Shown here: piece by piece, positions 20,430 through 46,719 of the stretch
Layout of the letters: every line of letters starts with the position of its first letter
How positions within the stretch are numbered: the stretch's first letter is position 1
Assembly: GCF_009720385.1 (NCBI RefSeq)
Contig: NZ_ML769304.1
Location: forward strand, 62,001 to 126,000
Length of the DNA: 64,000 bases
Source of the DNA: Catellatospora vulcania
GTDB taxonomy: Bacteria; Actinomycetota; Actinomycetes; Mycobacteriales; Micromonosporaceae
Direction of reading: 5' to 3'
The notes under the pieces: model-generated
Seen by the model: the letters and a program-made list of their open reading frames with translations, nothing else
Told to the model about the DNA's origin: nothing
Databases searched by the model: none
Translations under genes and position numbers: made by a program

Positions 20430-21431
20430 CTACATCGGCTGCACCGTGGGGGCGCGCCAGGTGTGGTTCAGGTTGCGCGTGGCGAAGCGGTCGCTCGCCT
20501 CGATCAGGTGGTGCAGGATGCCGGGCTGGTCGAAGGCGTGTCCCGCGTCGTCGACGATGAACAGTTCGCTGTCGGGAAGGGCGCGATGCAGGTCCCACGC
20601 TGTGCGGGCGGGGCAGACGGCGTCATACCGTCCCTGCACCAGCACCACTGGGATGCCGGAGAGCTTGGCCGCCTCGTTGATCAGCTGCCCCTCCTCGAGG
20701 AAGGCCCCCTGCACGAAGTAGTGGTTCTCGATGCGGGCGATCGCGGCGGCGTAGTCGTCCTGCGAGAAGGTCTGCACCAGCTCCGGGTCGGGCAGCAACG
20801 TGAGGATCGTGCCCTCCCACCGGCCCCAGGCCACGGCCGCCTCGATCCGGGTGTCGCGGTCCGGGTGCGACAGGCGGCGCTGGTAGGCGCCGAGGAGATC
20901 GTGCCGCTCGTCCAGCGGGATCGGCGCGACGAAGTCTTCCCAGTGGTCCGGGAAGAGCCAGCTGGCGCCTTCCTGGAAAGCCCACAGGAGCTCGGCGCGA
21001 CGAGCGGTGAAGATGCCGCGGAGGATCATCTCCGTGACCCGGTCAGGATGCTTCTGGGCATAGGCCAGCGCCAGGGTGACACCCCACGATCCGCCGGCGA
21101 CCATCCAGCGCTCGATGCCCAGGCTCTCGCGCAGCCTCTCGATGTCGGCGACCAGGTGCCAGGTCGTGTTGGCGCTGAGGTCCACGCCGGCTTCACTGGC
21201 GTGCGGCACGCTCTGTCCGCAGTTTCTCTGGTCGAAGAGGATCACCGAATAGAAGCGTGGGTCGAACAGTCGCCGATACTCCGGCTTGGAGCCGGCTCCG
21301 GGCCCGCCGTGAAGGAATACCACGGGCTTTCCGGTGGGATTTCCGGAGATCTCCCAGTGTAGGGAATTGCCGTCTCCGACATCGAGGAAACCCTCCATGT
21401 ATGGATTGGTCTCCGGATAGAACGTGCGCAT
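20430..21431 (-). CDS. pip: Prolyl aminopeptidase (proline iminopeptidase)
   Basis: 333 residues, alpha/beta hydrolase of peptidase family S33. The oxyanion region is FLHGGPGAG, the nucleophile elbow GGSWG, the catalytic Asp lies in QGRYDAVCP and the His in DDAGHAFD. The full-length match to Pip (MRTFYPETNPYMEGFL to ATRNLNHTWRA) is clear. It removes N-terminal proline from peptides in the cytoplasm. ATG at 21431 is used; upstream in-frame codons lack homology. It is monocistronic. Confidence 0.95.
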   Translation of the reverse strand: MRTFYPETNPYMEGFLDVGDGNSLHWEISGNPTGKPVVFLHGGPGAGSKPEYRRLFDPRFYSVILFDQRNCGQSVPHASEAGVDLSANTTWHLVADIERLRESLGIERWMVAGGSWGVTLALAYAQKHPDRVTEMILRGIFTARRAELLWAFQEGASWLFPDHWEDFVAPIPLDERHDLLGAYQRRLSHPDRDTRIEAAVAWGRWEGTILTLLPDPELVQTFSQDDYAAAIARIENHYFVQGAFLEEGQLINEAAKLSGIPVVLVQGRYDAVCPARTAWDLHRALPDSELFIVDDAGHAFDQPGILHHLIEASDRFATRNLNHTWRAPTVQPM

Positions 21432-21651
21432 GCTTGCCTCCCCGCAGGCGGTCGCGTGTCGTGCGTGCCAGACGTCCGAGAGTAGCCGAAGCCGCCGTGT
21501 CGTCAAGCGAGCAAAGTGGACAATCGGCTTTTGCAGAGGCCAGGACAAGGTAGTCGGATGATGCCAACATACCTGTTCAGGCCCTATCGCCAACAGCCGT
21601 CAAAGGTGCCACACCAAAGAGACCCGGGAGCGCGTCATCGACGTTGTGCTA

Positions 21652-21667: not shown

Positions 21668-21761
21668 TGTCCTGTGTGGACAGTGCAGTGATAAGCATGG
21701 ATTCATCGACAATCGTCATCCCCAAAGCGTTGCGGGCATAGATCGGCGTTTGGTAGCGTTC

Positions 21762-21782
21762 CCCCCGGCAACCGACCGGGGG
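21762..21782 (+). other. GC hairpin in the leader of the radical-SAM operon
   Basis: CCCCCGG and CCGGGGG form a 7-bp stem around loop CAACCGA, about 150 nt before the first gene. It may be an attenuator, mRNA stabiliser or part of a structured leader. I could not match it to a known riboswitch. Confidence 0.4.
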
Positions 21783-21929
21783 AGGTTTCGGCGACGATCA
21801 TTCGCGCCGATTCTCAGCCATGGTGTGGCACTGGGCCGCCCGATGCATTCCCCGATCTGCTGTCGATCGGTCAAGTAGGGGCCGAGTCCGCTCCAGAATG
21901 CGATAGAACTGAAACGGGGTTCTCTTGTC

Positions 21930-23507
21930 ATGTCCGTTGACTCGACTCAATTAATCGTGTTCGTGAATGCCGCCGACACCTCAAGACACACCTCCAGCGC
22001 CAACGCCTCCATCTACCCCAATCTCGGCCTGTTGACGTTGATGAGCGCCCTGCGGGAGCAGCTCGGCGACGGGCCGGTGCGGGTGGCCTATTTCGACGGC
22101 ACGGTGCACGGGAACCAGAAGCTGGCCGACTTCATCGACGGCAACGCCCACCGCATCCACGCGATGTGCTTCAGCGTGCTGACCGCCAACTACGGCGCAT
22201 CGGTCGAGCTGGCCGCGCGGGCCAAGCGACGCAACCCCGCAGTCACCACGGTGTTCGGCAACGACCACTTCTCCGCCCTCTACGACAACGCGATGCGCAG
22301 CCAGCCCGCGATCGACTTCGGGTTCTACGGCAACGACGTCGTCACCGGGTTCGCCGACTTCATGCGCGACGGCGTCGCCGGATCGCGCGGGCCGCTGTCG
22401 GGGTACGCGGGGCTGGTGTACCGTGCCGCGGACGGCACCGTGCTGCGCAATCCCGAGCGCCCTGCGGAGTACGGTTCGCTGCCGCTGGTCGACTACTCCC
22501 TGGCGGACACCCTCTTCCCGCACCAGGAGCACTACCTGCGCGGGCAGCAGGACGTCTACTTCTTCATGCGGGATCGGGAGCTGCGCAGCCAGGTGGTCGA
22601 CATCGGCCGCGGCTGCATCAAGTTCGCCGGCGAGCGGCTCGACGGCATCCCCCTGAACGCCTGCGACTTCTGCGGGATCATCCCCGGCAGCAGGGAGATC
22701 ATCGCGCCGGAGGCCGACCGGGCCTGGCGCATCCTCGAGAACGTGTACCGGCAGGGCTTCAACTACTTCTACGTCACCGCCGACGAGCTGCCGCTGACGC
22801 TGTGGCGCATGCTGCGCGGCATGGCCGAGCACGTGCCGCCGTGGTTCGCCGAGCTGCCCCCGCACGAGCGGCCGAAGATGTTCGGGTACACCCGCGCGGA
22901 GGCCTTCGCCACCGTGCCGGACCGGGTGGCGACGCTGATCAACGTGCTCGGCTTCGACCACTTCTTCATCGGGTTCGACGGGCTGTCCGACATCTCCCTG
23001 CGGGTCATGAACAAGCAGTCGGCGGGCGGCAAGGGCCGCAAGGACGCGCCGATGGACCACAACCTGCGCGCGCTGGACAGCGTGGTCAGCCAGGGCGGCA
23101 TGGTCACGGCGGGCCTGGTGCTGACCCACCTCGGCATCACGCCGAACCTGATGGCGGAGAACCTGGCGGTGCTGACCCGGATCGTCGAGAGCCACCCGAA
23201 GACGTTCGCGGCCCTGGACTTCGGCCCGCTGTGCCCGATCCCGGGATCGCAGTCCTTCCGCTACCTCACCCACCCCGAGCACGCCGAGAGCAGGGCGAAG
23301 GAGTTCGGGTTGCGGGTGGACCGCGACTACCTGGAGTCGGTCAAGGAGAAGTACCGCACCGGCGACCTGTTCGACATGGACGAGCTGATCAAGGACTTCA
23401 TCCGCGGCTGCTGCCCGGACATCACCACCGACGCCGTCGACGAGCACGTCGACCAGATCTCGGCGCTGGCGAACAAGTACGAGATCGTCATCGGGGGCGG
23501 TGTGTGA
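21930..23507 (+). CDS. Radical-SAM-like enzyme with unusual Cys spacing
   Basis: 525 residues. Residues about 8-190 form a Rossmann domain like the B12-binding part of BchE-type enzymes (PNLGLLTLMSALRE; FSVLTANYGASVELAARAKR), but no DxHxxG cobalamin motif is present. The cluster region is GRGC(229)IKFAGERLDG...NAC(245)DFC(248)GI, i.e. C-X15-C-X2-C instead of C-X3-C-X2-C; the aromatic residue before the last Cys is kept. A TIM-barrel-like region (FFIGFDGLSD; MVTAGLVLTHLG) follows. It is first in a nine-gene operon and its stop overlaps the next start (TGATG). Radical-SAM chemistry is likely; the substrate is unknown. Confidence 0.8.
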   Translation: MSVDSTQLIVFVNAADTSRHTSSANASIYPNLGLLTLMSALREQLGDGPVRVAYFDGTVHGNQKLADFIDGNAHRIHAMCFSVLTANYGASVELAARAKRRNPAVTTVFGNDHFSALYDNAMRSQPAIDFGFYGNDVVTGFADFMRDGVAGSRGPLSGYAGLVYRAADGTVLRNPERPAEYGSLPLVDYSLADTLFPHQEHYLRGQQDVYFFMRDRELRSQVVDIGRGCIKFAGERLDGIPLNACDFCGIIPGSREIIAPEADRAWRILENVYRQGFNYFYVTADELPLTLWRMLRGMAEHVPPWFAELPPHERPKMFGYTRAEAFATVPDRVATLINVLGFDHFFIGFDGLSDISLRVMNKQSAGGKGRKDAPMDHNLRALDSVVSQGGMVTAGLVLTHLGITPNLMAENLAVLTRIVESHPKTFAALDFGPLCPIPGSQSFRYLTHPEHAESRAKEFGLRVDRDYLESVKEKYRTGDLFDMDELIKDFIRGCCPDITTDAVDEHVDQISALANKYEIVIGGGV

Positions 23508-24808
23508 TGGCGGCGAAGCGGGACATGCTCGACGACCTCGCCGACGTGCGCTACACGCCGGCGGAGCCGGACGGCGAGCTGCTGGACGCGGCGGCGTACG
23601 CCACCGAGTCGCTGGTCAAGCTGGGGGTCAGTTTCACCGGCTCCGAGCGGGACAAGGCGCCGTGGCTCGTGGCGGCCCGGCCGTTCGCGCTGGGCGACGA
23701 CCTGTGGGAGCGGCTGGAGCGGCTCGGCGCCGCGGTGTTCGCACTGGTCGACGCCGCACAGGACCTCTACCGGGAGGGCGACGCGGCGGTGCGCGGACAC
23801 CTGGACACCGGTGTCCCGGAGGACCTGCGCGGCTTCGACCTGGCACGCTACATCGAGATGTTCCGGCTGGACGTCGTGGTGAGCGGGGGCAGGCCGCTGC
23901 TCACCGAGGTCGAGGAGATCTTCGGCAACGCCGGCAAGGCGCACGCGTTCGAGCGGGCGTACGGGGTGTCGGCGGCACCGCTGTTCGACACGTTCCGCCG
24001 GCTGGGGTTCGCCCACATCTGGCTCGACGACGGCTACCCGATGTACCGCTCGGAAAACGAGCTCGTCGCGCAGCGGATGGGCGAGGACTTCGGCATGGAC
24101 GTCGACGTCGAGCCGTTCTCCCGGTTCCGCGACGACGGCCGGATCGGGTGGCGCTTCTGCTACGTCAAGGAGTTCCGCCAGTACGACGCCAGGCTCCGGG
24201 CGGAGATCCTCGGCAGCGCCGAGCAGCTGGTCAACCCGCTGTTCCACGGGTACGGCACGAAGGGGCTGCTGTCGCTGTCGTGGGACGAGCGGCTCGAGGA
24301 CGAGCTCGCGGCGCGGATGGGCGCTGCGCAGCTGTCGGTGCTGCGTGAGGGCGTCCCCCGTTCGGCGCTCATGCCGAAGGATCCGACGCCGGAGTTCCTG
24401 GCCGACCTCAAGGCGCACGGCCGCCGCAAGGTGCTCAAGGTGGTGGACTCCGACGGCGTCGAGTTCACCTGGGGCAGCCGGGGCGTCTACTTCGGCGACC
24501 AGTCCGCGAGCCGGTGGCACGCCGCCGTGGACGCCGCGGCCGCCGGGCACATCCCCGGGCATCCCGAGCACGCAGACACAAGTTTCCTGATCAGCGACCT
24601 GGCGGACAGCGACCGCTTCGACGTGCAGTTCCTGCATCCGCACTCCGGTCAGCTGTGCCTGATGCCCCGGGCCCGGCTGCGGCTGACCCCGATCTTCACC
24701 CGGGCCGGCACCGGAAGCAGCATGCTCGGCGGCCACGCGACGTTCGTCAACACCAGCCGCAAGGTCCACCTCGGCAGGCATGCCGTCTGCACACCCTTCA
24801 CCAAATGA
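23507..24808 (+). CDS. Uncharacterised protein, probably a divergent ATP-grasp-like ligase
   Basis: 433 residues, start ATG 23507 overlapping the radical-SAM stop. There is no clear annotated family, but the order of blocks recalls circularly permuted ATP-grasp enzymes: NPLFHGYGTKGLLSLSWDE (cf. 'P..s...sKa.LalLwd'), KVLKVVDSDGVEF with WGSRGVYFGDQSASRW (cf. the ATP-binding 'lKP..g.gG.GV..g..w'), then RLRLTPIFTRAG and GGHATFVNTSRKVH near the end. The protein at 29873 is a more canonical member, so the operon would hold two ligases. The function is inferred only from fold resemblance. Confidence 0.7.
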   Translation: MAAKRDMLDDLADVRYTPAEPDGELLDAAAYATESLVKLGVSFTGSERDKAPWLVAARPFALGDDLWERLERLGAAVFALVDAAQDLYREGDAAVRGHLDTGVPEDLRGFDLARYIEMFRLDVVVSGGRPLLTEVEEIFGNAGKAHAFERAYGVSAAPLFDTFRRLGFAHIWLDDGYPMYRSENELVAQRMGEDFGMDVDVEPFSRFRDDGRIGWRFCYVKEFRQYDARLRAEILGSAEQLVNPLFHGYGTKGLLSLSWDERLEDELAARMGAAQLSVLREGVPRSALMPKDPTPEFLADLKAHGRRKVLKVVDSDGVEFTWGSRGVYFGDQSASRWHAAVDAAAAGHIPGHPEHADTSFLISDLADSDRFDVQFLHPHSGQLCLMPRARLRLTPIFTRAGTGSSMLGGHATFVNTSRKVHLGRHAVCTPFTK

Positions 24809-24819
24809 GGAGCTCGGCA

Positions 24820-25980
24820 ATGATGAGGCACAGGTCGTCGCGGTGGACAGCGGTGCTGGTCGCGGCCGGGCTGATCCTGTCCGGATGCGGCAACGGGCTG
24901 CTGGGCGATCCTGGCGGCGCGGCGTCCGACGACGGCCCGATCCGGCTGGGCATGCTCGCTCCGCGGACGGGCAGTGAGGCCGCGATCGGTCCCTACATGC
25001 AGAACGGCGCGCAGCTGGCGATCGACGAGATCAACGCCAAGGGCGGCGTGGACGGCCGCATGCTGGAGCTGGTCGTCGAGGACGACGCGTGCGACCCCAA
25101 GACGGCGGTCGCGGGCGCGAACAAGCTCATCGCCGCGGGCGTGCACGTGTCGGTGGGCGGCTACTGCTCCGGCGCGACGCTGCCGACCCTGCCGGTGTTC
25201 CACCGCGTCAAAATCCCGATGATCATCCCGGCGGCCAACTCGTACGAGCTGGTCGAGCAGAAGCTCGACAACGTCTTCCTGATCAACGGCACCGGCGACC
25301 AGCAGGCCGCGGCGGCGGCGACGTGGATCGGCAAGCAGCGCGCGGCCTCGGTCGTGGTGATGCACGACAACACCAGCGCCCCCCGGGACATGGCGGTGCG
25401 TACGCAGAGCCGCCTGGCCTCGACGGGAGTGAAGGTCGCGGTGGAGATCGTGACTCCGAAGGAGAGCGACTACTCCGCGAACGTGGCCGTCGCGCTGCGC
25501 GCCAAACCGGACCTCATCTACTGGACCGGCTATTTCCAGGAGGGCGGGCTCATCATCCGCCAGCTGCGCCACGCCGGCTACCGCGGCGCGATCATGGTGG
25601 GCGACGGCGCGGTGTCGGCCAAGCTCGTCGAGATCGCCGGTGCGACCGAGGCCGCAGGGGTGTTCGCCACCATGACCCAGACACCGGACACGCTGCCCGG
25701 GGCGCAGGGCTGGCTGTCGGCCTACAAGACCAAGTTCGGCCAGGAGCCGGGCCCCTACTCCAACCAGAGCTACGACGCGGTGCGGCTCGCGGCCGAGGCC
25801 GTCCGGGCGGCGGGCGGCACCGACGGCGCCAAGGTCATCGCGGCGCTGGCCAAGGTCGACGGGTTCCCGATGTTCTCCGGCCCGCTGCGGTTCACCCCGG
25901 AGCACACCCTCAGCAGCGGCGGCTTCCAGATCCTCGTCGTCAAGGACGGCAGGTTCACGCTGGCCGACCCGCTGACGTAG
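24820..25980 (+). CDS. livJ: Liv-type ABC transporter substrate-binding lipoprotein
   Basis: 386 residues, ATG at 24820 with GAGGAG 8 nt upstream. The lipoprotein signal ends LSGC. The mature type I periplasmic-binding fold shows IRLGMLAPRTGSEAAIG, GAQLAIDEINAKGGVDG, and GGYCSGATLPTLPVF, the branched-chain amino acid/amide-binding pattern. It starts 11 bp after the ATP-grasp-like gene and is followed at once by four transporter genes. The ligand need not be leucine; in this context an amino-acid-like precursor or product is plausible. Confidence 0.93.
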   Translation: MMRHRSSRWTAVLVAAGLILSGCGNGLLGDPGGAASDDGPIRLGMLAPRTGSEAAIGPYMQNGAQLAIDEINAKGGVDGRMLELVVEDDACDPKTAVAGANKLIAAGVHVSVGGYCSGATLPTLPVFHRVKIPMIIPAANSYELVEQKLDNVFLINGTGDQQAAAAATWIGKQRAASVVVMHDNTSAPRDMAVRTQSRLASTGVKVAVEIVTPKESDYSANVAVALRAKPDLIYWTGYFQEGGLIIRQLRHAGYRGAIMVGDGAVSAKLVEIAGATEAAGVFATMTQTPDTLPGAQGWLSAYKTKFGQEPGPYSNQSYDAVRLAAEAVRAAGGTDGAKVIAALAKVDGFPMFSGPLRFTPEHTLSSGGFQILVVKDGRFTLADPLT

Positions 25981-25988
25981 GGGGGCCC

Positions 25989-26882
25989 ATGCTGCAGGTG
26001 CTCTGGAACGGGATCTTCGTCGGCTCCTTCTACGCGCTCGTCGCGCTCGGCTACGGGATGGTCTACGGCGTCATCAGGCTGCTCAACTTCGCCCACGGCG
26101 ACCTCTACATGGTCGGCGCGTTCGTCGGCTTCATCTCGCTCAGCGCGCTGGGCGTACGCACCGGCGGTGTCGGCATCCCGCTGCTGATCCTCACGCTGGT
26201 GGCCACGATGCTGGTCACGGGGCTGCTCGGCGTGGCGCTCGAACGGCTCGCCTACCGGCCGCTGCGCGGGTCGTCACGGCTGTCACTGCTGATCACCGCG
26301 GTGGGAGCGTCGTTCGCGCTGGAGTACGGCGTCCGGATCGTGGCCGGCGCCGACCCGCAGGTCTACCCGGTGCGCTTCGACCTGGCGGCGCTCGAGGTGC
26401 TCGGTGTGCGCCTGTCCGGGCAGCAGCTGGCGCTCATCGGGTTCGCGCTGGCGCTGATGGTCGCGCTGCACCTGCTGGTGTCGCGGACCAGGCGGGGGCG
26501 GGCGATGCGCGCCATCGCGCTCGATCCGCGTGCCAGCGCGCTCATGGGCATCGACGTGAACGCGGTGGTGTCCCAGACGTTCTTCATCGGGTCGGCGCTG
26601 GCGGGCGCGGCCGGGTTCATGGCCGGCGCGTACTACGGCAAGATCGATTTCTTGATGGGGTTCGTCATCGGCCTCAAGGCGTTCACCGCAGCCGTCATCG
26701 GCGGCATCGGCAACATCTACGGCACCATGGCCGGCGGGATCCTGCTCGGCCTCGTCGAGTCGGTGGGCACCTCGGTGCTGGGCGGGCAATGGCGTGACGT
26801 GCTCACCTTCGGCGTGCTGATCCTGTTCCTCTCGATCCGGCCCACCGGGTTGTGGGGCGCCCCGGTCGCGGAGCGTGCCTGA
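25989..26882 (+). CDS. livH: Liv-type ABC transporter permease (LivH)
   Basis: 297 residues with about eight membrane segments. The family opening GIFVGSFYALVALGYGMVYG and INFAHGDLYM-type motif LLNFAHGDLYMVGAF are present, and FTAAVIGGIGNIYGTMAGG marks the cytoplasmic coupling region. It starts 8 bp after livJ and overlaps livM (TGATG). Confidence 0.95.
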   Translation: MLQVLWNGIFVGSFYALVALGYGMVYGVIRLLNFAHGDLYMVGAFVGFISLSALGVRTGGVGIPLLILTLVATMLVTGLLGVALERLAYRPLRGSSRLSLLITAVGASFALEYGVRIVAGADPQVYPVRFDLAALEVLGVRLSGQQLALIGFALALMVALHLLVSRTRRGRAMRAIALDPRASALMGIDVNAVVSQTFFIGSALAGAAGFMAGAYYGKIDFLMGFVIGLKAFTAAVIGGIGNIYGTMAGGILLGLVESVGTSVLGGQWRDVLTFGVLILFLSIRPTGLWGAPVAERA

Positions 26883-27826
26883 TGTCGCTGCCCGCGGTGC
26901 TCAACGCCAGATGGATCGGCTGGCTCGGCTTCGCCGCCGCGCTGCTGGCGCCGTTCGTCATCGCCACGCCGTACGCGATGTCCATCATGACCAGTGCCGC
27001 CGTGTTCGTGATGCTCGCGACCGGGCTGAACATCGTCGTCGGATACTGCGGGCTGCTCGACCTGGGCTACGCGGCGTTCTTCGCCGTGGGCGCGTACACG
27101 GCCGGCATCATGTCCACGCGGCTGGACCTGCCGCTGCTGGCCACGGTGCCGGCGGTGGTGCTGGTGACGGCGGGCGCCGGGGTCCTGATCGGGCTGCCCA
27201 CCCTGCGGCTGCGCAGCGACTACCTGGCCATCGTCACCCTCGGGTTCGGCGAGATCATCCGGGTCACCGCCGGAAACCTCGACTTCACCGGCGGCCCGTC
27301 GGGGATCTACGGCATCCCGGGGCTGGCGGTGGGAGGCCTGGACCTGAGCGATCCGGTGGTCTTCTACTACGCGGTCGTCGTCGTGGTCTCGGTGGCCGTC
27401 GTGGGCGCCGCCCGGCTGTCCTCGTCGCGGCTGGGCCGGGCCTGGCGGTTCATCCGGGAGGACGAGGACGCGGCCGAGGCGTGCGGCATCGACACGTACC
27501 GGACCAAGCTCGCGGCGTACGTCGCGGGAGCGGTCTGGGGCGGACTGGCGGGGGTGCTGTTCGCGGCTCAGCTGTCGGCCATCTCTCCGGCGAGCTTCAC
27601 CTTTCTGCAGTCGGTGCTCGTGCTGGTCGCGGTGGTGCTCGGCGGGCAGGGCGTCTCGCGCGGCGTGGTCGTCGGCGCGGTGTTCATCGCGCTCGGCCCC
27701 GAACTGCTGCGCGACGTGGCCGACTACCAGTACGCGGCCTTCGGCGTGCTCCTGATCGTGATCATGATCCTCCGGCCACGGGGGCTCTGGCCCGGCAGGG
27801 CGGGCCTCGGGAGGCGCGATGCTTGA
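26882..27826 (+). CDS. livM: Liv-type ABC transporter permease (LivM)
   Basis: 314 residues, polytopic. Typical LivM blocks are LNIVVGYCGLLDLGYAAFFA, LRLRSDYLAIVTLGFGEIIR and the coupling region GRAWRFIREDEDAAEACGID. Its 3' end overlaps livG by 8 bp. It forms the heterodimeric channel with LivH. Confidence 0.95.
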   Translation: MSLPAVLNARWIGWLGFAAALLAPFVIATPYAMSIMTSAAVFVMLATGLNIVVGYCGLLDLGYAAFFAVGAYTAGIMSTRLDLPLLATVPAVVLVTAGAGVLIGLPTLRLRSDYLAIVTLGFGEIIRVTAGNLDFTGGPSGIYGIPGLAVGGLDLSDPVVFYYAVVVVVSVAVVGAARLSSSRLGRAWRFIREDEDAAEACGIDTYRTKLAAYVAGAVWGGLAGVLFAAQLSAISPASFTFLQSVLVLVAVVLGGQGVSRGVVVGAVFIALGPELLRDVADYQYAAFGVLLIVIMILRPRGLWPGRAGLGRRDA

Positions 27827-28604
27827 GATCGACCAGGTGCGCCTGTCGTTCGGCGGCGTGCACGCCCTCGACGGGGTCTCGCTCACCCTCGGCCCGGCCG
27901 AGGTGTGGTCGATGGTCGGCCCGAACGGCGCCGGCAAGACCGCCCTGTTCAACTGCGTGACCGGGTTCGCACGGCCGCAGCAGGGCGCCATCCGCTTCCA
28001 CGGGAGCGACCTGGTGGGGCTGCGCCCCTCGGCGATCGTGGCGCGGGGGGTGGCCCGCACGTTCCAGCACCTGCGCCTGTTCGGCGAGCTGTCGGTGCTG
28101 GAGAACGTACGCGCCGGCACCCACCGCGGCACCGGCCAGCACGTGCTCGACGCGCTGCTGCACACCCGCCGGTTCCGGCGTTCGGAACGCGACAGCACCG
28201 TCGAGGCCGAGCGGTGGCTGGACTTCGTCGGACTCCACGCCGATCGGGGCAGGGCGGCCGGCACGCTGTCCTACGGCAACCGGCGCATGGTCGAGATCGC
28301 CCGGGCGCTGGCGTGCCGGCCCCGCCTGCTGCTGCTGGACGAGCCCGCCGCCGGGCTCAACCACAGCGAGAAGGGCGCCCTCGCCGACCTGATCGCGCGC
28401 ATCCGCGACCTGGGCACCGCCGTGCTCCTCATCGAACACGACATGTCGCTGGTCATGGACATCTCCGACCAGGTCGTGGTGCTGAACTTCGGCCGGCGGA
28501 TCGCGCAGGGCACACCCGAGGACGTCAGCCAGGACCCGGTCGTGGTGGAGGCCTACCTGGGCCGCGAGCGCGATGACGAGACGGACGGTGAGCCTGGTGC
28601 TTGA
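27819..28604 (+). CDS. livG: Liv-type ABC transporter ATPase (LivG)
   Basis: 261 residues. Walker A is GPNGAGKT and Walker B LLLLDEPAAG; the signature region reads LSYGNRRMVEIARAL, a Liv-type variant of LSGGQ; the H-loop is EHDM. The LivG marker block ARTFQHLRLFGELSVLENV is present. It overlaps livM and livF. Confidence 0.95.
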   Translation: MLEIDQVRLSFGGVHALDGVSLTLGPAEVWSMVGPNGAGKTALFNCVTGFARPQQGAIRFHGSDLVGLRPSAIVARGVARTFQHLRLFGELSVLENVRAGTHRGTGQHVLDALLHTRRFRRSERDSTVEAERWLDFVGLHADRGRAAGTLSYGNRRMVEIARALACRPRLLLLDEPAAGLNHSEKGALADLIARIRDLGTAVLLIEHDMSLVMDISDQVVVLNFGRRIAQGTPEDVSQDPVVVEAYLGRERDDETDGEPGA

Positions 28605-29322
28605 GATCACAGGCCTGGAAGTCGGCTACGACGGGGTGCGGGCGGTCGCCGGCCTGTCCCTGGCCGTCCGCGAAGGAGAGATCGTCACCCTGCTGGGGGC
28701 CAACGGGGCCGGGAAGACCACCACCCTGCTGGCGGTGTCGGGGCTGGTCCGCCCGTCGGCGGGCACTGTCTGCTGGCAGGGGCGCGACATCACCCGCGCG
28801 CACCCCAAGGACATCGTCGCGGCCGGCATCGTGCACGTGCCGGAAGGACGCCGGGTCTTCAGCACGATGAGCGTGCACGAGAACCTCCAGCTCGGCGGGC
28901 ACCTGGTCGCCCGCAACACGGCCGCCGAGCGGATCGCGCACGTCTACGAGCTGCTGCCGCGGCTGCGGGAGCGGCGCGCGCAGGCGGCCGGCACCCTGTC
29001 CGGCGGCGAGCAGCAGTTGCTGGCCATCGGGCGGGCGATGGTCGCCGGTCCGAAGCTGCTGCTGCTGGACGAGCCGTCGATGGGGCTGGCACCCCTCATG
29101 GTCGACCTGGTCATGGGCATCATCGACCGGCTGCGGGGCGAGGGTGTCTCGGTGCTGCTCGTGGAGCAGAACGCCCGCGCGGCGCTGCGTATCGCCGACT
29201 CGGGTGTGGTCATCGAGAACGGCGTGGCGACGACGTCCGGATCGGCTCGTGACCTTTTGGCCGACGAAGCCGTCGTCAAGGCGTACCTGGGACGTGCCAG
29301 AAAATCAACTCGTTTGGCATGA
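28573..29322 (+). CDS. livF: Liv-type ABC transporter ATPase (LivF)
   Basis: 249 residues from ATG 28573, or about 8 fewer if the GTG at 28597 is used. Walker A is GANGAGKTT, signature LSGGEQQLLAIGRAM, Walker B LLLLDEPSMGLAP, and the LivF hallmark VHVPEGRRVFSTMSVHENL. It overlaps livG by up to 32 bp. With LivG it powers the importer. Confidence 0.94.
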   Translation: MTRRTVSLVLEITGLEVGYDGVRAVAGLSLAVREGEIVTLLGANGAGKTTTLLAVSGLVRPSAGTVCWQGRDITRAHPKDIVAAGIVHVPEGRRVFSTMSVHENLQLGGHLVARNTAAERIAHVYELLPRLRERRAQAAGTLSGGEQQLLAIGRAMVAGPKLLLLDEPSMGLAPLMVDLVMGIIDRLRGEGVSVLLVEQNARAALRIADSGVVIENGVATTSGSARDLLADEAVVKAYLGRARKSTRLA

Positions 29323-29376
29323 AACGTCACGCTTACGATGTCAGCCGTACCAGTCGACACCACAGTGAGGTTTGAC

Positions 29377-29841
29377 ATGTCCGACGCCGTCGCCCGAACC
29401 ACCGCCGCCCTTCGCGACCTCAACGTCGCGGGCGAGATCCGCACCTTCATCGAGCCCGTCCCCACCGCCGCGGCGGCCGCGGCCCAGCTCGGCTGCGAGG
29501 TCGGCGCGATCGCCAACAGCCTCGTCTTCGACGCCGACGGGGAACCGCTGCTGATCCTGGCCAGCGGGGCACACCGCGTCAACACCGCCAAGGTGGCCGC
29601 GCTGCTGGGCGCCGCCCGGATCCGCCGGGCCACGCCCGCGTTCGTGCTGGCCGCCACGGGTCAGGAGGTCGGCGGCGTCGCGCCGGTCGGGCACCCGGCG
29701 GCGATCCGCACCGTAGTGGACACCTGGCTGGGCCGCTACGAGCAGGTGTGGGCCGGAGCAGGCGACGAGATGACGATGTTCTGCACCTCGCTCAGGGAAC
29801 TGGAACGCATCACCGGCGGCAAGGTCGCCGACATCGAATGA
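29377..29841 (+). CDS. YbaK/ProX-type aminoacyl-tRNA deacylase
   Basis: 154 residues from ATG 29377 (GTGAGG 6 nt upstream). The YbaK fold is clear: CEVGAIANSLVFDADGEP, ASGAHRVNTAKVAALL, then GQEVGGVAPVGHP, which contains the conserved GG(V/T)xPxGH catalytic loop. Such free-standing domains hydrolyse misacylated tRNA (Ala-, Cys- or other aa-tRNA(Pro)). Its position 54 bp after livF and 31 bp before the ATP-grasp gene suggests co-transcription and a possible protective role. Confidence 0.9.
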   Translation: MSDAVARTTAALRDLNVAGEIRTFIEPVPTAAAAAAQLGCEVGAIANSLVFDADGEPLLILASGAHRVNTAKVAALLGAARIRRATPAFVLAATGQEVGGVAPVGHPAAIRTVVDTWLGRYEQVWAGAGDEMTMFCTSLRELERITGGKVADIE

Positions 29842-29872
29842 CGCACCCCTCGGGGCGTCGGAGAGGATGACT

Positions 29873-31234
29873 ATGGCCACCAGCGCGGAGAACGCGATCA
29901 CGCGACGTTTCCTGCACGAGTCGCGGGGAGACGGCCGGGTCGCGTCCGTCAGGTTCGCCGACTTCCCCGACTTCATGACCTACGGCAGCGACCGGAACTT
30001 CAACCGGCCGTTCTTCCTGGACGCCGGGCAGTACGCCGGGATCCGGGCCGATCTCGCCGCCATGTTCGCGCTGATGTGCTCCCTGCCGGACCGCCTGTTC
30101 GGCGGGAGCATCCAGGCGCTGGCCGACGCGACGGGCACGCCCGCGCTGCAGGCCGAGGCGATCCTGCGCACGGCGACCGACGAGCCGGTGTGCATCGGCC
30201 GGGCCGACCTATACCAGGAGCAGACCGGCTTCCGGATGCTGGAGTACAACCTCACCAGCGGGCTCGGCGGCTGGCACGGCACCCTGCTCAACCGGGTGAT
30301 GCTGCACGACGATCACCTGCGCGCGTTCGTGGCCGACGAGTCCCTCGGATACGGCGACAGCCTGCGTGGGCTGGTGGACACGATGCTGGCCACCAGCCTG
30401 CCGAAGGACGCCCCGTCGCGCCCGTTCGTGGCGGTGACCGACTGGCCGACCAGCTTCCCCATCGAGGAGCAGCGCATGCGCACGATGGCGACGCTCATGG
30501 GCCCGATGGGCGTGGATGCCGAGGCGTGCCACATGGGACAGCTGGAGTACCGCCAGGGCGGCGTGTACCTCGCCGGGCGCCGCGTCGACGTCGTCTACCG
30601 CATGTACCTGCTGGACCACCTGCTGGAGGGCCCGCAGCCGGCGGAGCTGCTGCGCCCCCTGCTGGAGGCGGTCGAGCGCGGCGCGGTGGGGCTGTGCGCC
30701 CCGTTCGACATCGAGCTCTACGGGAACAAGGCGTGCATGGCGCTGCTCAGCGACGAGCGCCACCGCGGCGCTTTCGAGCCGCACGAACTCGACCTGGTCG
30801 AGCGGATGCTGCCGTGGACCCGGCAGGTGCGCCGGGAACGGGTCCGCGCCGACGGCGAGGAGGTCGACCTGCTCGACTACGCCCTGGCCCACCGCAGCGA
30901 ACTGGTCCTCAAACCGAACTGCGCCTACGACGGCCACGGGGTGACCGCCGGTTGGACCGTCGACGACGAGCAGTGGGCCGACCTGGTGAAGGCGGCCGTC
31001 GACGGGTCGTACATCGTGCAGCGCCGCGTCGTGCCCGTACGGGAACGGGTGGTGGATCCGACCGCACCGGACGGCTACGCCCGCGCCATCCTCAACTGGG
31101 GGATCTTCGTCGGCGTCTCCCCCGCCGACGCGGGCGCCTACGTGAAGGGCACCACCGACCACGACGCGGGGGTCGTCAGCGTCGACCGGGGCGCCCGCTT
31201 CGGCTGCGTGTTCCACCACGCCGGGCAGCGATGA
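29873..31234 (+). CDS. Circularly permuted ATP-grasp ligase-like protein
   Basis: 453 residues from ATG 29873; GGAGAGG ends 6 nt upstream, whereas the ATG at 29867 abuts it. Blocks in order: FRMLEYNLTSGLGGWHG (substrate/pre-ATP-grasp region), VDVVYRMYLLDHLLEG, LYGNKACMALLSDE, and ELVLKPNCAYDGHGVTAGW then YIVQRRVVPV (ATP-binding Lys, glycine loop and hinge). This is the arrangement of glutathionylspermidine-synthase-type ATP-grasp proteins, which form amide bonds through acyl-phosphates. Its stop overlaps the MFS start (ATGA). Confidence 0.82.
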   Translation: MATSAENAITRRFLHESRGDGRVASVRFADFPDFMTYGSDRNFNRPFFLDAGQYAGIRADLAAMFALMCSLPDRLFGGSIQALADATGTPALQAEAILRTATDEPVCIGRADLYQEQTGFRMLEYNLTSGLGGWHGTLLNRVMLHDDHLRAFVADESLGYGDSLRGLVDTMLATSLPKDAPSRPFVAVTDWPTSFPIEEQRMRTMATLMGPMGVDAEACHMGQLEYRQGGVYLAGRRVDVVYRMYLLDHLLEGPQPAELLRPLLEAVERGAVGLCAPFDIELYGNKACMALLSDERHRGAFEPHELDLVERMLPWTRQVRRERVRADGEEVDLLDYALAHRSELVLKPNCAYDGHGVTAGWTVDDEQWADLVKAAVDGSYIVQRRVVPVRERVVDPTAPDGYARAILNWGIFVGVSPADAGAYVKGTTDHDAGVVSVDRGARFGCVFHHAGQR

Positions 31235-32553
31235 GGATCGGGCAGGCCCGGACCGCAACAGCCGCCGACTTCACCAAGCTGTGGTTCGGCGAGAGCGTAT
31301 CCCTCGTCGGGGCGCAGGTCGCGCTGCTGGCCCTGCCGCTCACCGTGCTGGAGGTCCTGCACGCGTCGGTCCGCGAGGTCGGGCTGCTCAACGCCCTGAG
31401 CTTCGTCCCGTTCACCGGGGCGCTGCTGGTCGGGGTGTGGATCGACCGGGTGCGCCGCAGGCACGCGATGATCGGCAGCAACATCATCCGCGCCGGGGTG
31501 CTGCTCACGCTGCCGCTGCTCGCCTGGACGGGCCAGCTTCGCCTGGAGATCGTGTACGGCGCGGCGCTCGTCCTCGGCGCTTGCTCGGTGATCTTCGATG
31601 TGGCCTACCAGTCGTACCTGCCCGCGCTGGTCGCTCCGACGGAACTGGTGCGCGCCAACAGCCGGATGGAGGGCAGCGCGGCGCTGGCCCAGGTCGCCGG
31701 TCCGGGGGCGGCCGGAATCCTCGTAGACCTGCTGACGGCGCCGATCGCGCTGGTCGCCAACGGCCTGTCCTACCTGGTCTCGCTGTGGTCGCTGCTGCTG
31801 ATCCGCCGCCCTGAGGTTCCGCCCGCCCCGCGGCGCGAGCGCGGCAGCCTCTGGCGCGACATCGGCGACGGCCTGCGGCTGACCTTCTCCAACAACCTGC
31901 TCCGCGCCTGCCTGGGCCAGGCCGCCACGTACAACATGTGCTGGCTGGCGCAGCAGACGGTGTTCCTGCCCTACGCGACCGAGCGGCTCGGCATGTCGCC
32001 GAGCCTGCTGGGACTGGTCATGGGCAGCGGCGCGGTCGGCTCGGTCGGCGGGGCCGTGGTGGCGGGCAGGCTCGCGCGCCGGCGGGGACACGGGCCCGCG
32101 ATCCTCATCGCGACCCTGCTGAGCGGCGCGGCCCCGGCGCTGCTTCCGGTCGTGCACGACCAGCGGCCGGTGGGCCTGGCGTTGCTGGTCGTCTCGTTCT
32201 TCCTCGGCGGAGCGGGTCTCAGCATCGCCAACGTGCACATGGTCAGCCTGCGCCAGGCAGTGACGCCGCCGGACACGCTCGGGCGGGTCAACGCCAGCTA
32301 CCGGTTCGTCGCCTGGGGGGTGATGCCCCTCGGGGCGCTGGCGGGCGGGTTCCTCGCCGACGCGGCCGGCCTGCGGGTCGCGCTGGTGGTGATCGCCGCG
32401 GTGTTCCTGTCTGCTCCGATGTGGATCCTCTTCTCGAAGGTCCCCGAACTCCGTTCCCTCGACGCGGCAACGCGGCCGAGCCGGCCGGATCCGGTCGAAT
32501 CCGGCATGGTGTACACGGCCCGCGCGCCATACGACGACCAGCCCGGCAGCTGA
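31231..32553 (+). CDS. MFS exporter
   Basis: 440 residues with 10-12 hydrophobic segments, of the enterobactin/macrolide-efflux (EntS/MefA-like) branch: FTKLWFGESVSLVGAQVALL, GVWIDRVRRRHAMI, SRMEGSAALAQVAGPGAAG, VNASYRFVAWGVMPLGAL. This branch exports natural products and drugs. It is the last gene of the operon, followed by a hairpin at 32592-32614, and is the probable product exporter and self-resistance determinant. Confidence 0.92.
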   Translation: MRIGQARTATAADFTKLWFGESVSLVGAQVALLALPLTVLEVLHASVREVGLLNALSFVPFTGALLVGVWIDRVRRRHAMIGSNIIRAGVLLTLPLLAWTGQLRLEIVYGAALVLGACSVIFDVAYQSYLPALVAPTELVRANSRMEGSAALAQVAGPGAAGILVDLLTAPIALVANGLSYLVSLWSLLLIRRPEVPPAPRRERGSLWRDIGDGLRLTFSNNLLRACLGQAATYNMCWLAQQTVFLPYATERLGMSPSLLGLVMGSGAVGSVGGAVVAGRLARRRGHGPAILIATLLSGAAPALLPVVHDQRPVGLALLVVSFFLGGAGLSIANVHMVSLRQAVTPPDTLGRVNASYRFVAWGVMPLGALAGGFLADAAGLRVALVVIAAVFLSAPMWILFSKVPELRSLDAATRPSRPDPVESGMVYTARAPYDDQPGS

Positions 32554-32591
32554 GCGGGGTGCGATTGACAAAGCCGTGGCCCGCCGCGAAC

Positions 32592-33539: not shown

Positions 33540-34841
33540 ATGCGTCGCACCGCCAGAGGGATCGCCGTTCTTGCCTCCGCTGCCATCGCACTTGCGGTGA
33601 CGGCCTGTGGCAACGACGCGACCGAGGCACCCACCACCAAGACCGACCCCGCGGCCCTGTCGGCCGAGCTGACGTGGTGGGACACGTCGGACCCCGCCAA
33701 CGAGGGTCCGGCATACAAGGAGCTCATCACCGAGTTCAACAAGACCTACCCGAACGTGAAGATCAACTACCAGTCGGTCCCGTTCGGCGAGGCGCAGAAC
33801 AAGTTCAAGACCGCCGCCGCGGCCAACTCCGGCGCTCCGGACGTGCTGCGCGCCGAGGTGGCGTGGGTGCCGGAGTTCGCGTCCCTGGGCTACCTGTACA
33901 ACCTCGACGGCAGCGAGCTGCTGGCCGACGAGTCCGACTTCTTCGCCACCCCGATGTCGGCGAACAAGTTCGACGGCAAGACCTACGGTGTTCCGCAGGT
34001 CACCGACTCGCTCGCGCTGATGTACAACAAGAAGATCTTCACCGATGCGGGTATCACCGAGGCGCCCAAGACCTGGGCCGACGTGAAGACCGCCGCCGCG
34101 GCGATCAAGGCCAAGACCAAGAAGGACGGCCTGTTCATCAACGCCGGTGGCTACTTCCTGCTGCCGTTCATCTACGGCGAGGGCGGCGACCTGGTCGACA
34201 CCGCCGCCAAGAAGATCACCGTGAACTCCGCGGCCAACGTCGCGGGCATCCAGGTTGCCGCCGACCTGGTCAAGTCGGGCGCCGCGGTCAAGCCGCCGGC
34301 GAACGACTCGTACGGCACCATGATGACCCTGTTCAAGGAGCAGAAGGTCGCCATGATCATCAACGGCCCGTGGGAGGTCAACAACCTCCGCAACGCCCCG
34401 ACCTTCGGCGGCATCGACAACCTCGGCGTCGCCGCGGTTCCGGCGGGCTCGGCGAAGGCCGGCGCACCGGTCGGCGGCCACAACTACGTGCTGTACTCCG
34501 GCATGGCGCAGGACAAGGCCGCCGCGGCCATCGCGTTCGTGAAGTTCATGTCCTCGGCGTCCTCGCAGGCGTTCCTGGCCGACAAGCTGGGCACCCTGCC
34601 CACCCGCAAGTCGGCGTACGAGATCGACAAGGTGAAGAACAACGCGATCATCGCGGCGTTCCAGCCGGTCGTGGCCGCCGCCGTGGCCCGCCCGTGGATC
34701 CCCGAGGGCGGCCAGTTCTTCGGCCCGCTCGACACGATGGCCACCGAGGTCCTGATCCAGGGCAAGGACCCGAAGACCTCCCTCGACGGGGTCGCGAACA
34801 AGTACAAGACCGAGGTCGTCACCGCCTACACGGCGTCCTGA
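33540..34841 (+). CDS. ABC transporter sugar-binding lipoprotein (MalE-like)
   Basis: 433 residues, ATG 33540. The lipoprotein signal ends AVTACGN. The family-1 solute-binding fold shows LTWWDTSDPANEGPAYKE, YGVPQVTDSLALMYNKK, FKEQKVAMIINGPWEV. The arrangement binding protein-permease-permease-LacI regulator, without an ATPase, is typical of actinobacterial maltodextrin/cellobiose systems energised by a shared MsiK ATPase encoded elsewhere. Maltooligosaccharide is the likely but unproven ligand. Confidence 0.93.
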   Translation: MRRTARGIAVLASAAIALAVTACGNDATEAPTTKTDPAALSAELTWWDTSDPANEGPAYKELITEFNKTYPNVKINYQSVPFGEAQNKFKTAAAANSGAPDVLRAEVAWVPEFASLGYLYNLDGSELLADESDFFATPMSANKFDGKTYGVPQVTDSLALMYNKKIFTDAGITEAPKTWADVKTAAAAIKAKTKKDGLFINAGGYFLLPFIYGEGGDLVDTAAKKITVNSAANVAGIQVAADLVKSGAAVKPPANDSYGTMMTLFKEQKVAMIINGPWEVNNLRNAPTFGGIDNLGVAAVPAGSAKAGAPVGGHNYVLYSGMAQDKAAAAIAFVKFMSSASSQAFLADKLGTLPTRKSAYEIDKVKNNAIIAAFQPVVAAAVARPWIPEGGQFFGPLDTMATEVLIQGKDPKTSLDGVANKYKTEVVTAYTAS

Positions 34842-34849
34842 CCCTCACC

Positions 34850-34881
34850 TGAGGCCGGTCCCCCGCGCGGGGGCCGGCCTC
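34850..34881 (+). terminator. Strong intercistronic hairpin between malE- and malF-like genes
   Basis: TGAGGCCGG(T)CCCCCGC pairs with GCGGGGGCCGGCCTCA around a tiny loop, with one bulged base; 16 bp are GC-rich. It starts 9 bp after the binding-protein stop. It probably gives partial termination or stabilises the upstream message, so that binding protein exceeds permeases. Confidence 0.75.
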
Positions 34882-34925
34882 AGGCCCATCCCCCGCGCCC
34901 CGCTTTCACCCCTCGGAGCACGCCC

Positions 34926-35942
34926 GTGAGCACAGACACCGCCACGCCGGCCCGGACCAGCCCCCCGCCGCGTGAGACCCGACGACCCGGCCGGCTGCGG
35001 CGCAGCTGGGACAAGCACTGGTACGCCTGGGTGATGGTCGCCCCCGTCGTGCTGGTACTCGGCGTCCTGATCTTCTATCCGCTCGGCCGCGGCATCCTGC
35101 TGTCGTTCACCAACCTCACCGAGGCGAACCAGCTCGCCGAGATCTGCAGCAAGTCGATCACCGGCAGCGAGGTGTGCAAGCCCAACCCGAACGCGTGGGA
35201 GATCGTCGGCGTCGACAACTACGTCAACCTGCTCACCGGCAAGGTCGGCGAGTTCTGGCGGCAGTTCGGCGTCACGCTCATCTGGACGGTCACCTGCGTG
35301 GTGTTCCACTACGGCCTGGGACTGGGCCTGGCCGTGCTGCTCAACCGGCCGATGCGCGGCCGTGGCCTCTACCGGATGCTGCTGATCCTGCCGTGGGCGG
35401 TGCCCGCGTTCGTGTCGGCGTTCGCGTGGCGGTTCATGTTCAACGAGCAGTTCGGCCTAATCAACTCGCTGTTCGAGTCCGTCGGCCTGGACCGCGTCGA
35501 GTGGTTCGCCGACTGGAAGACCGCGCTGCTCACGGCGATCATTGCCAACATCTGGCTGGGCGTGCCGTTCATGATGGTCACCCTGCTCGGCGGGATGCAG
35601 ACCATCCCCGGCGAGCAGTACGAGGCCGCCGAGATCGACGGAGCCACCCCGTGGCAGCGGTTCGTCAACATCACGCTGCCCGGCCTGCGCTCGGTCAGCA
35701 TGACCGTCCTGCTGCTGGGCTTCATCTGGACGTTCAACATGTTCCCGATCATCTTCCTGGTCACCGGCGGCGAGCCGGCCGGGCAGACCGAGATCCTGGT
35801 GACCGGCGCGTTCCGGTCGGCGTTCGAGGGCATCCGCAACTACTCGCTGTCCTCGACGTACGGCGTGCTGATCCTGTCCATCCTGCTCGTCTTCTCCGTG
35901 TTCTACCGGCGGGCGCTGCGCAAGCAAGGCGAGGTGTGGTGA
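34926..35942 (+). CDS. ABC sugar transporter permease (MalF-like)
   Basis: 338 residues from GTG 34926 (CGGAG upstream). There are six membrane helices after a proline-rich cytoplasmic N-terminus, and the EAA loop reads YEAAEIDGATPWQRFVNITLPGL in shortened form EAAEIDGATPWQRF. Its stop is 1 bp from the next start. Confidence 0.93.
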   Translation: MSTDTATPARTSPPPRETRRPGRLRRSWDKHWYAWVMVAPVVLVLGVLIFYPLGRGILLSFTNLTEANQLAEICSKSITGSEVCKPNPNAWEIVGVDNYVNLLTGKVGEFWRQFGVTLIWTVTCVVFHYGLGLGLAVLLNRPMRGRGLYRMLLILPWAVPAFVSAFAWRFMFNEQFGLINSLFESVGLDRVEWFADWKTALLTAIIANIWLGVPFMMVTLLGGMQTIPGEQYEAAEIDGATPWQRFVNITLPGLRSVSMTVLLLGFIWTFNMFPIIFLVTGGEPAGQTEILVTGAFRSAFEGIRNYSLSSTYGVLILSILLVFSVFYRRALRKQGEVW

Positions 35943-35943
35943 C

Positions 35944-36846
35944 ATGACGATGACCATGGCCCCCGGCACGACGGCCGGGCAGTCCGCGCCCACCCCGCAG
36001 ACCAACAAGCAGAGCCGGGCCAAGCGCAGCCCGCTGGCTTCGCTCGGGCTGCACGCCACGCTGATCGGCGCGTCGCTGATCGCGGTGTTCCCGATCGCGT
36101 GGGTGGTGCTGAGCTCGTTCAAGCCCAAGCAGTGGGTGCAGAGCAGCGAGCTGTCGCTGGTCAAGGAACCAACCCTGGGCAACTACGAGTACGTGCTGTT
36201 CGAGACGAACTTCCCGACCTGGATGCTCAACTCGGTGATCATCGCGCTGTGCACGATGGTGATCGGCATCCTGATGTCGGCGACCACCGGGTACGCGCTG
36301 TCGCGGTTCAACTTCCCGGGGCGGCGCAAGCTGATGATGGTGTTCCTGGTGACGCAGATGTTCCCGGTCGCCATCCTGATCGTGCCGATTTACCAGATCA
36401 TGGCGACGTTGGGGCTGATCAACACGCATGCGTCGCTGGTGATCGCGTACCTGACGATCGCGGTGCCGTTCTGTTCGTGGATGTTGAAGGGGTACTTCGA
36501 CTCGATTCCGACGTCGCTGGACGAGGCGGCGTCGATCGACGGGTGCGGGCCGTTCCAGACGTTCTGGCGGGTGATCATGCCGCTGGCGCGGCCGGGTATC
36601 GCGGTGACGGCGTTCTACACGTTCCTGACGGCGTGGGGCGAGGTCGCGTACGCGTCGGCGTTCATCCAGACCGACGACCGGTTCACGCTGGCGTACGGCA
36701 TGCAGCAGTTCGTGCCGCAGTTCAACGCGCAGTGGGAGTACCTGACCGCCGCGGCGGTGCTGGTGACGGTGCCCGCCGGGCTGGTCTTCCTGTACGCCCA
36801 GCGCCACCTGGTGTCCGGCCTGACCGCCGGTGGAACGAAGGGCTGA
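35944..36846 (+). CDS. ABC sugar transporter permease (MalG-like)
   Basis: 300 residues and six membrane helices. The EAA loop is LDEAASIDGCGPFQTFWRVI. The C-terminal block YLTAAAVLVTVPAGLVF is typical of MalG. It pairs with the upstream permease. Confidence 0.93.
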   Translation: MTMTMAPGTTAGQSAPTPQTNKQSRAKRSPLASLGLHATLIGASLIAVFPIAWVVLSSFKPKQWVQSSELSLVKEPTLGNYEYVLFETNFPTWMLNSVIIALCTMVIGILMSATTGYALSRFNFPGRRKLMMVFLVTQMFPVAILIVPIYQIMATLGLINTHASLVIAYLTIAVPFCSWMLKGYFDSIPTSLDEAASIDGCGPFQTFWRVIMPLARPGIAVTAFYTFLTAWGEVAYASAFIQTDDRFTLAYGMQQFVPQFNAQWEYLTAAAVLVTVPAGLVFLYAQRHLVSGLTAGGTKG

Positions 36847-36847
36847 G

Positions 36848-44879: not shown

Positions 44880-45457
44880 GCCGGGCTGTCCTGCATGGCG
44901 GCTTCGACCGCGCGCCGGGCGCGGTCGGCCGCCGCACGGGCACCGTACAGGCGGGCGCACAGCGCCGTCAGGATCTCGGTAACGTCACGCACCAGGTCGT
45001 CGTCCACCTCGGCCGGGTCGACCACCAGCAGCCGACGGCCCTGCGCGGCGAGGGCGGCTTCGACGTACTCGGCGCCGAAGCGGGCGAACCGGTCGCGGTG
45101 CTCGACCACGATCGTCGTAACGGCCGGGTCACGCAGTAGGGCGAGGAACTCCTTGCGGTGCCCATCGAGCGCCGAGCTGACCTCGGTCACCACGCGCGAC
45201 ACCGAATGCCGCTGACTCGTGGCCCACACGGTGACCCGGGCGACCTGCCGGTCCAGGTCCGCTTTCTGATCCGACGAACAGACGCCGGCGTACACCACGA
45301 CCTGCCCGGCGCCAGCTTTCGCCCCGGTCACCGGCTCGCCGACCATAATGAGCCGGCCCAGCCGGTACGTGGGAACGGGCAGCGTCCCCGCCTCATAGCG
45401 CCGCCGCGCGGTCGCGTACGAGATACCGGTGGCCGCTGCCCACCCCTTCAAGTTCAC
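44876..45457 (-). CDS. tnpA: IS607-type serine recombinase with altered active site
   Basis: 193 residues. The N-terminal MerR-like HTH (MNLKGWAAATGISYATARRR) precedes the resolvase domain, as in IS607 TnpA. The catalytic motif normally Y-x-R-V-S-S reads Y56-A-G58-V-C60-S: Arg is Gly and the nucleophilic Ser is Cys. Other motifs (SSDQKADLDRQ; VVEHRDRFARFG; VVDPAE) are intact. Transposition activity is doubtful. Confidence 0.9.
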   Translation of the reverse strand: MNLKGWAAATGISYATARRRYEAGTLPVPTYRLGRLIMVGEPVTGAKAGAGQVVVYAGVCSSDQKADLDRQVARVTVWATSQRHSVSRVVTEVSSALDGHRKEFLALLRDPAVTTIVVEHRDRFARFGAEYVEAALAAQGRRLLVVDPAEVDDDLVRDVTEILTALCARLYGARAAADRARRAVEAAMQDSPA

Positions 45458-46712: not shown

Positions 46713-46719
46713 GTCCAAT

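Follow-up and report, generated by a model that had tools for sequence, protein, structure and literature searches.

The genome of the soil bacterium Catellatospora vulcania (family Micromonosporaceae; assembly GCF_009720385.1; 8.8 Mb in 36 contigs) carries a rare accessory cassette of eleven genes and ~12.1 kb, in which a ten-gene run on the forward strand (21930-32553) stands next to a divergent prolyl aminopeptidase gene (20430-21431, reverse strand). All positions refer to the window, the whole 64,000-nucleotide stretch of contig NZ_ML769304.1 that we analyzed (contig positions 62,001 to 126,000). The run begins with a putative B12-binding radical S-adenosylmethionine-type enzyme (rSAM) and continues with a 433-aa protein (orf2), a Liv-type importer, an extra YbaK/ProXp-type aminoacyl-tRNA deacylase, what is probably an ATP-grasp ligase of the circularly permuted type (cpATPg) and a major facilitator superfamily (MFS) exporter. 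Our favored reading, which we hold to be evenly poised, is that a small non-proteinogenic amino acid is produced, masked and exported by the cassette, which also protects the cell from it.

Cassette limits and spread within the genus

We compared window positions 10001-45000 by blastn with the corresponding locus of a named relative, Catellatospora tritici NEAU-YM18, which is treated as genome G133 in the genus counts. Two long matches were obtained, at 20430-21520 (87.4% identity) and 21728-32555 (91.4%); no further match exceeded 950 bp, and that one was at 66.5%. The shared DNA begins at the aminopeptidase stop codon (20430) and ends two bases beyond the MFS stop codon (32555). The rSAM gene is present in two of the 11 genomes of the genus, and a close copy of the aminopeptidase is confined to the same two. 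Because the ends of the shared DNA coincide with those of the gene set and both genes occur in the same two genomes, we treat the stretch as one accessory cassette.

Each of the ten operon proteins shares 89-96% identity with its C. tritici counterpart (rSAM, 95%), and the ratio of nonsynonymous to synonymous substitutions (dN/dS) is 0.10-0.30 across the eleven genes, with a dS of 0.17-0.29 for those of the operon. Since C. tritici shares this DNA with no other long match in the stretch compared, and the eleven genes are under such constraint, the gene set is not a chance assembly.

A preliminary description of this stretch had counted nine genes, although its own list sums to ten; ten is also our count, to which the upstream aminopeptidase is added. 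Its account of the layout holds: every gene that it named lies on the forward strand in the order given, with several overlaps and a widest intergenic gap of 54 bp, between livF and ybaK. A terminator scan returned two sites against 3.0 expected in shuffled sequences, neither of them intergenic.

The radical-SAM-type enzyme

The first gene (21930-23507) encodes a 525-aa protein that matches the Pfam B12-binding family PF02310 (35.2 bits; cut-off 32.1) and gives no match to the Pfam Radical_SAM family PF04055 at E-values up to 5. The radical-SAM label proposed in the preliminary description is nevertheless plausible, because three cysteines (C229-X15-C245-X2-C248) are invariant in the aligned sequences and because of the predicted fold; Pfam itself shows only B12 binding. 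The predicted model has a radical-SAM fold across most of its length, and Foldseek placed it nearest to AprD4, TsrM, MgmA and OxsB. In its three conserved cluster cysteines and its combined B12/radical-SAM fold, the protein agrees with what is expected of cobalamin-dependent radical SAM enzymes. More distant relatives carry CX8CX2C, and a 23% relative (locus L082, CX6CX2C) does match PF04055.

The protein resembles TsrM, MgmA, TokK, CysS and OxsB in its B12-binding domain (by Pfam) and modeled fold, and AprD4 in fold, but is only 11-16% identical to them in the Foldseek table and has CX15CX2C where they have CX3CX2C. QueE, which is not known to have a B12-binding domain, is comparable by motif alone, in the enlargement of its cysteine loop. 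This enzyme makes 7-carboxy-7-deazaguanine, and its CX14CX2C motif indicates that a radical SAM cluster can be accommodated when the first cysteine loop is enlarged, as summarized in PMC4389238.

A tblastn search with the enzyme against 72,556 plasmid records matched eight, six of which cover at least 80% of the query; the neighborhoods of H8 (65% covered, 27%) and H9 (20% covered) were left out, and record H3 was taken at the best of three places. In the family, 26 of 200 genomes gave matches at E 0.001, but coverage of the protein was obtained in just three of them (C. vulcania itself, G133 and G098); 23 were dropped, being mainly matches to the B12 domain. In the class, two of 394 genomes matched at E 1e-10, namely the source genome and the distant G771, in whose own genus two of 246 genomes matched at E 1e-30.

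Each of the eleven proteins then served as a query (E 1e-4) against nine rSAM loci outside the genus (L029 extending L028), over 20-35 kb each, and against an orf2 locus, L131. The closest plasmid relative (71%), from Streptomyces chartreusis, lies in a YbaK - rSAM - EamA transporter run, and in Paraburkholderia sabiae and the actinomycete genome G1173 the rSAM gene is followed by a LysE-type transporter. An rSAM gene with an amino-acid exporter is therefore common to three of the nine loci, one of which also has the YbaK gene. At locus L140, generic ATP-binding cassette (ABC) ATPases were the sole importer-type matches.

A recurrent cluster in five actinomycete genomes or plasmids combines a nonribosomal peptide synthetase (NRPS), a phosphotransferase-like gene, a B12-binding protein of the rSAM type and urease-like subunits (L028 13808-19703, continuing at L029 41-1366; also L132, L133, L135 and, by eye, L136). 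A 2-oxoglutarate-oxygenase-like gene is also present in L028 and L133. The urease alpha subunit of L028 may not belong to an ordinary urease, because it scores 589.6 against the TIGR01792 cut-off of 680 and yet passes a subfamily model.

The extra editing enzyme

The ybaK gene (29377-29841, forward strand) was listed as an open reading frame from 29338; in C. tritici a stop codon lies just before the start at 29377. Its product matches the tRNA_edit family PF04073 with 98 bits and is additional to another YbaK copy, 51-54% identical to it, that is present in all 11 genomes of the genus. The match to TIGR00011, the model for YbaK proper (Cys-tRNAPro deacylase), reached 48.1 of the 153.25 bits required. 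The best solved relative is PDB 2CX5 (TTHA1699), at a modest 78.2 bits, which places the protein nearest to the ProXp-x type. According to the summary in PMC11295145, 2CX5 represents ProXp-x, which deacylates 2-aminobutyryl-tRNA, and 2-aminobutyrate is mischarged by the prolyl-, valyl-, leucyl- and isoleucyl-tRNA synthetases. A preference for A73 is a further property of this deacylase type. The likeness to ProXp-x, taken with the Liv-type importer, suggests by analogy a product whose side chain is of 2-aminobutyrate or valine size.

The YbaK of the S. chartreusis plasmid is 63-64% identical to that of the cassette, and the two group apart from the general copies of the genus (IQ-TREE 80, FastTree 0.87) in a tree with a long outgroup branch, where support is moderate at best. 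The preliminary description had linked this gene, as a tRNA-editing function, with a modified amino acid and an exporter. That link is supported by the S. chartreusis run, the rSAM-LysE loci and the ProXp-x type of the enzyme.

Ligase candidates and the exporter

Of the two ATP-grasp-like ligases that the preliminary description proposed, the ninth gene (cpATPg, 29867-31234, forward strand) is the firmer. Its match to PF14403 (CP_ATPgrasp_2) stays below the cut-off (18.9 bits against 32), but all eight aligned sequences, among them those of C. vulcania and C. tritici, keep the motifs R-A-D-x-Y, E-x-N, K288, LSDE and LKP unchanged. From these motifs, it is likely to encode a circularly permuted ATP-grasp ligase.

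Relatives of cpATPg occur in 49 of 200 genomes of the family at E 0.001, many as weak partial matches, and 19 neighborhoods were examined. An MFS relative directly adjoins the cpATPg relative in seven of them (L063, L065, L066, L069, L079, L080 and L081), the closest, in L063, being 46% identical to the cassette MFS protein. Three of the 19 have a LivJ-like match (26-28%) some kilobases away, and L072 has a YbaK-like match (30%) at ~3 kb. No Liv permease was found in any of the 19; apart from the LivJ-like matches, their importer-type matches were generic ABC ATPases. By eye, cpATPg relatives in L063 (6775-11979), L064 and L067 are clustered with MFS genes and further ATP-grasp-like genes; the ATP-grasp-like gene of L063 has Pfam matches under cut-off only, and the fragment in L064 has none.

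In the cassette, cpATPg overlaps the last gene, mfs (31231-32553, forward strand), whose product matches Pfam MFS_1 with 154 bits.

The second candidate, orf2 (23507-24808, forward strand), gives a weak profile signal only. Aligned with the family of the ninth gene by hhalign, it scored 29.3 against a best of 23.0 in 30 column shuffles (p 0.0068, with a probability of only 5.6%). The profiles align in order at the YGxK / DE stretch and the VLK stretch, and the signal, weak against eight sequences, was somewhat better against 16. A fold predicted from a two-row alignment reached a predicted local distance difference test score (pLDDT) of 32.6. From the profile comparison, orf2 is a possible divergent circularly permuted ATP-grasp protein.

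With orf2 as the query, one of 396 genomes of the phylum matched, the source genome itself; in the family, 13 of 354 matched at E 0.1, two of which are real (the source genome and G133), and the other 11 (E 0.008-0.1) were dropped as chance matches. In the genus of G771, none of 169 genomes matched at E 1e-8, in a search that had no positive control. The only relative found outside the genus (46%) is on a plasmid of Streptomyces sp. NBC_01724 (L131), with an arginine-deiminase-like gene on one side and a gene for a valyl-tRNA synthetase on the other, after which comes an alpha/beta hydrolase gene; the hydrolase is nearest to a proline-iminopeptidase subfamily model, under its cut-off.

At L131 11267-18773, a radical SAM gene, the arginine-deiminase-like gene, the orf2 relative, the valyl-tRNA synthetase gene (alt_ValS model) and the iminopeptidase-like hydrolase gene stand in a row. 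The synthetase could serve in self-resistance, provided that the chromosome has its own valyl-tRNA synthetase.

The importer and the prolyl aminopeptidase

Five consecutive forward-strand genes encode a complete J-H-M-G-F set, as judged by the closest models. The solute-binding lipoprotein LivJ (24820-25980) matches Pfam Peripla_BP_6 with 214 bits, its best PDB matches being the amino-acid binding protein 3ip5 and the E. coli leucine-binding protein. The permeases LivH (25989-26882) and LivM (26882-27826) match BPD_transp_2, and the ATPases LivG (27819-28604) and LivF (28573-29322) match ABC_tran, LivG also matching BCA_ABC_TP_C. All five subunits score under the curated NCBIfam cut-offs of the Liv models that are closest to them; we therefore call the importer Liv-type, a term that makes no claim to a branched-chain ligand.

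The divergent gene encodes a prolyl aminopeptidase (proline iminopeptidase), with 374.8 bits to TIGR01249 (cut-off 259.75) and an E-value of 1e-117 to PDB 1qtr. Its true start is most likely the ATG at 21431, the listed open reading frame extending to 21593. The protein is 91% identical in C. tritici, with a dN/dS of 0.11. Of the nine genomes of the genus without the rSAM gene, seven have an aminopeptidase copy of the 44-47% type only and two (G118 and G016) have none; the source genome also has a second copy of this type, which G133 lacks.

Proposed function and alternatives

For the cassette as a whole, we infer the substrates, the product, the direction of flow and a single transcript. As its fold and neighbors suggest, the rSAM enzyme would build the amino acid, probably through C-methylation or radical rearrangement of a common one. 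The cpATPg protein, perhaps together with the 433-aa protein, may join this amino acid to another residue, possibly proline, and the MFS protein would export the peptide or the amino acid. The aminopeptidase could then free the amino acid again, the Liv-type importer would take back the amino acid or a precursor, and the extra YbaK/ProXp enzyme would hydrolyze tRNA mischarged with the product, as FthB does for fluorothreonine.

The nearest precedent is the fth locus of Streptomyces cattleya, where the deacylase FthB and the transporter FthC guard the 4-fluorothreonine producer (summarized in PMC7162832). The cassette likewise has an additional trans-acting deacylase and an exporter. It differs in that its deacylase is nearest to 2CX5, FthB being related to ProXp-ST1 (summarized in PMC11295145), and in having the B12-binding rSAM enzyme, the Liv-type importer, the ATP-grasp-type proteins and the aminopeptidase. 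Pseudomonas aeruginosa makes the toxic amino acid AMB as part of a tripeptide, and its amb cluster encodes the LysE-type AmbA, the likely exporter (summarized in PMC4357302), so a design with a toxic amino acid within a peptide exists with other enzymes. There, NRPS and oxygenases take the place of rSAM and ATP-grasp proteins, and the five genes named in the abstract of that paper include no editing enzyme.

All components to which a family could be assigned belong to known kinds. Judged by titles and abstract beginnings in the open-licence literature, no paper on this cassette was found, nor one that describes the combination or a CX15CX2C B12-binding enzyme beside an editing enzyme.

Several observations weigh against the proposal of a made and guarded amino acid. 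The cysteine spacing of the rSAM enzyme is not the canonical CX3CX2C, and orf2 matches no Pfam or NCBIfam family. The general YbaK copy of the genus also has 2CX5 as its best match, with a higher score than the cassette copy (102.7 against 78.2 bits), so the ProXp-x type marks no special substrate. The dS of the aminopeptidase gene (0.46) is roughly double the values of the operon genes, and in G133 this gene is the sole close copy, so its history or its role may differ from theirs. Among the nine outside rSAM loci, five (L028, L132, L133, L135 and L136) are NRPS-urease-like clusters and a sixth, L140, is in another kind of cluster. In the 20-35 kb searched at E 1e-4, none of the nine has relatives of the Liv permeases, LivJ, orf2, cpATPg, the MFS protein or the aminopeptidase, and YbaK adjoins rSAM in just one, so that few loci underlie the link to editing. 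As far as these loci show, the full gene set is lineage-specific: a smaller core to which Liv genes and ligases were added, an addition seen here in Catellatospora only. The preliminary description had held that its operon idea would fail if homologs of the first two genes were normally found apart from the transporter and ligase genes, and this is in part what we see: the outside rSAM loci lack Liv, orf2 and cpATPg relatives, and the sole outside orf2 relative found lies away from Liv genes and from this type of rSAM.

The prominence of the importer, which accounts for five of the ten operon genes, invites the view that the cell consumes or resists a compound instead of producing one: an amino acid or peptide from the environment would enter through the importer and be converted or detoxified by the rSAM enzyme and ligases, while YbaK would protect against it. 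A prolyl aminopeptidase suits peptide breakdown, and there is a precedent in CtdA, a stand-alone editing enzyme against canavanine in bacteria that live alongside canavanine-producing plants (summarized in PMC10018355). We regard this view as unlikely, however, since ATP-grasp-type proteins and an exporter suit synthesis better and rSAM adjoins an exporter in S. chartreusis, P. sabiae and G1173, where no importer relative was found. Those same three loci also bear on the idea of a peptide natural product. Here the ligases would supply a peptide or a carrier-bound residue, and this, instead of a free amino acid, would be the substrate of the rSAM enzyme, with YbaK as a helper in some other role. 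The five NRPS-urease-like clusters speak for it, as do the titles of the structures of TokK and CysS, both close in fold, which were crystallized with pantetheine-linked substrates. It is nonetheless quite unlikely in our view: no NRPS or carrier family is matched by the ten operon proteins, and no peptide-making gene is listed beside rSAM in the three loci (with incomplete gene tables for the plasmids, and G1173 judged by eye).

A further alternative is that two unrelated units became neighbors by accident, the Liv importer being housekeeping-like and the other unit an rSAM/ligase set. The absence of Liv permeases from all nine outside rSAM loci and all 19 cpATPg neighborhoods would fit this. 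The importer, however, lies inside a run of overlapping genes and is conserved together with it (89-96% identity). The DNA in common with C. tritici, moreover, stops at the ends of the cassette, which makes an accidental neighborhood improbable. A proline analog was also considered as a speculative product, from the aminopeptidase and the tRNAPro-linked YbaK family.

Extending the favored reading of amino-acid synthesis and self-protection, we tentatively suggest a wider scheme, which we consider clearly less likely than not. B12 radical enzymes with the CX15CX2C motif may make a free amino acid of 2-aminobutyrate or valine size that is misread by aminoacyl-tRNA synthetases, and the family would travel with a ProXp-x-type editor and an exporter, to which Catellatospora would add prolyl-type peptide masking, unmasking and Liv-type recapture. 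If this is correct, genomes could be mined for amino-acid antimetabolites through their YbaK/ProXp-type editing enzymes, fluorothreonine being the precedent, and unusual free amino acids would gain a new biosynthetic route in this family of B12 radical enzymes. A compact test case would be the S. chartreusis locus, whose three genes encode one enzyme, one editing protein and one exporter.

Downstream surroundings

Just downstream of the cassette, outside the DNA shared with C. tritici, genes for a solute-binding protein, two permeases and a LacI-type regulator (33540-37864) resemble, by eye, a sugar ABC transporter operon. Approximately 11 kb downstream of the cassette, two genes at 43500-45457 look by eye like an IS607-type element, with a serine recombinase and a TnpB-like protein. 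Adjacent small genes at 45997-46733 appear, again by eye, to encode a PIN-domain toxin and its antitoxin.

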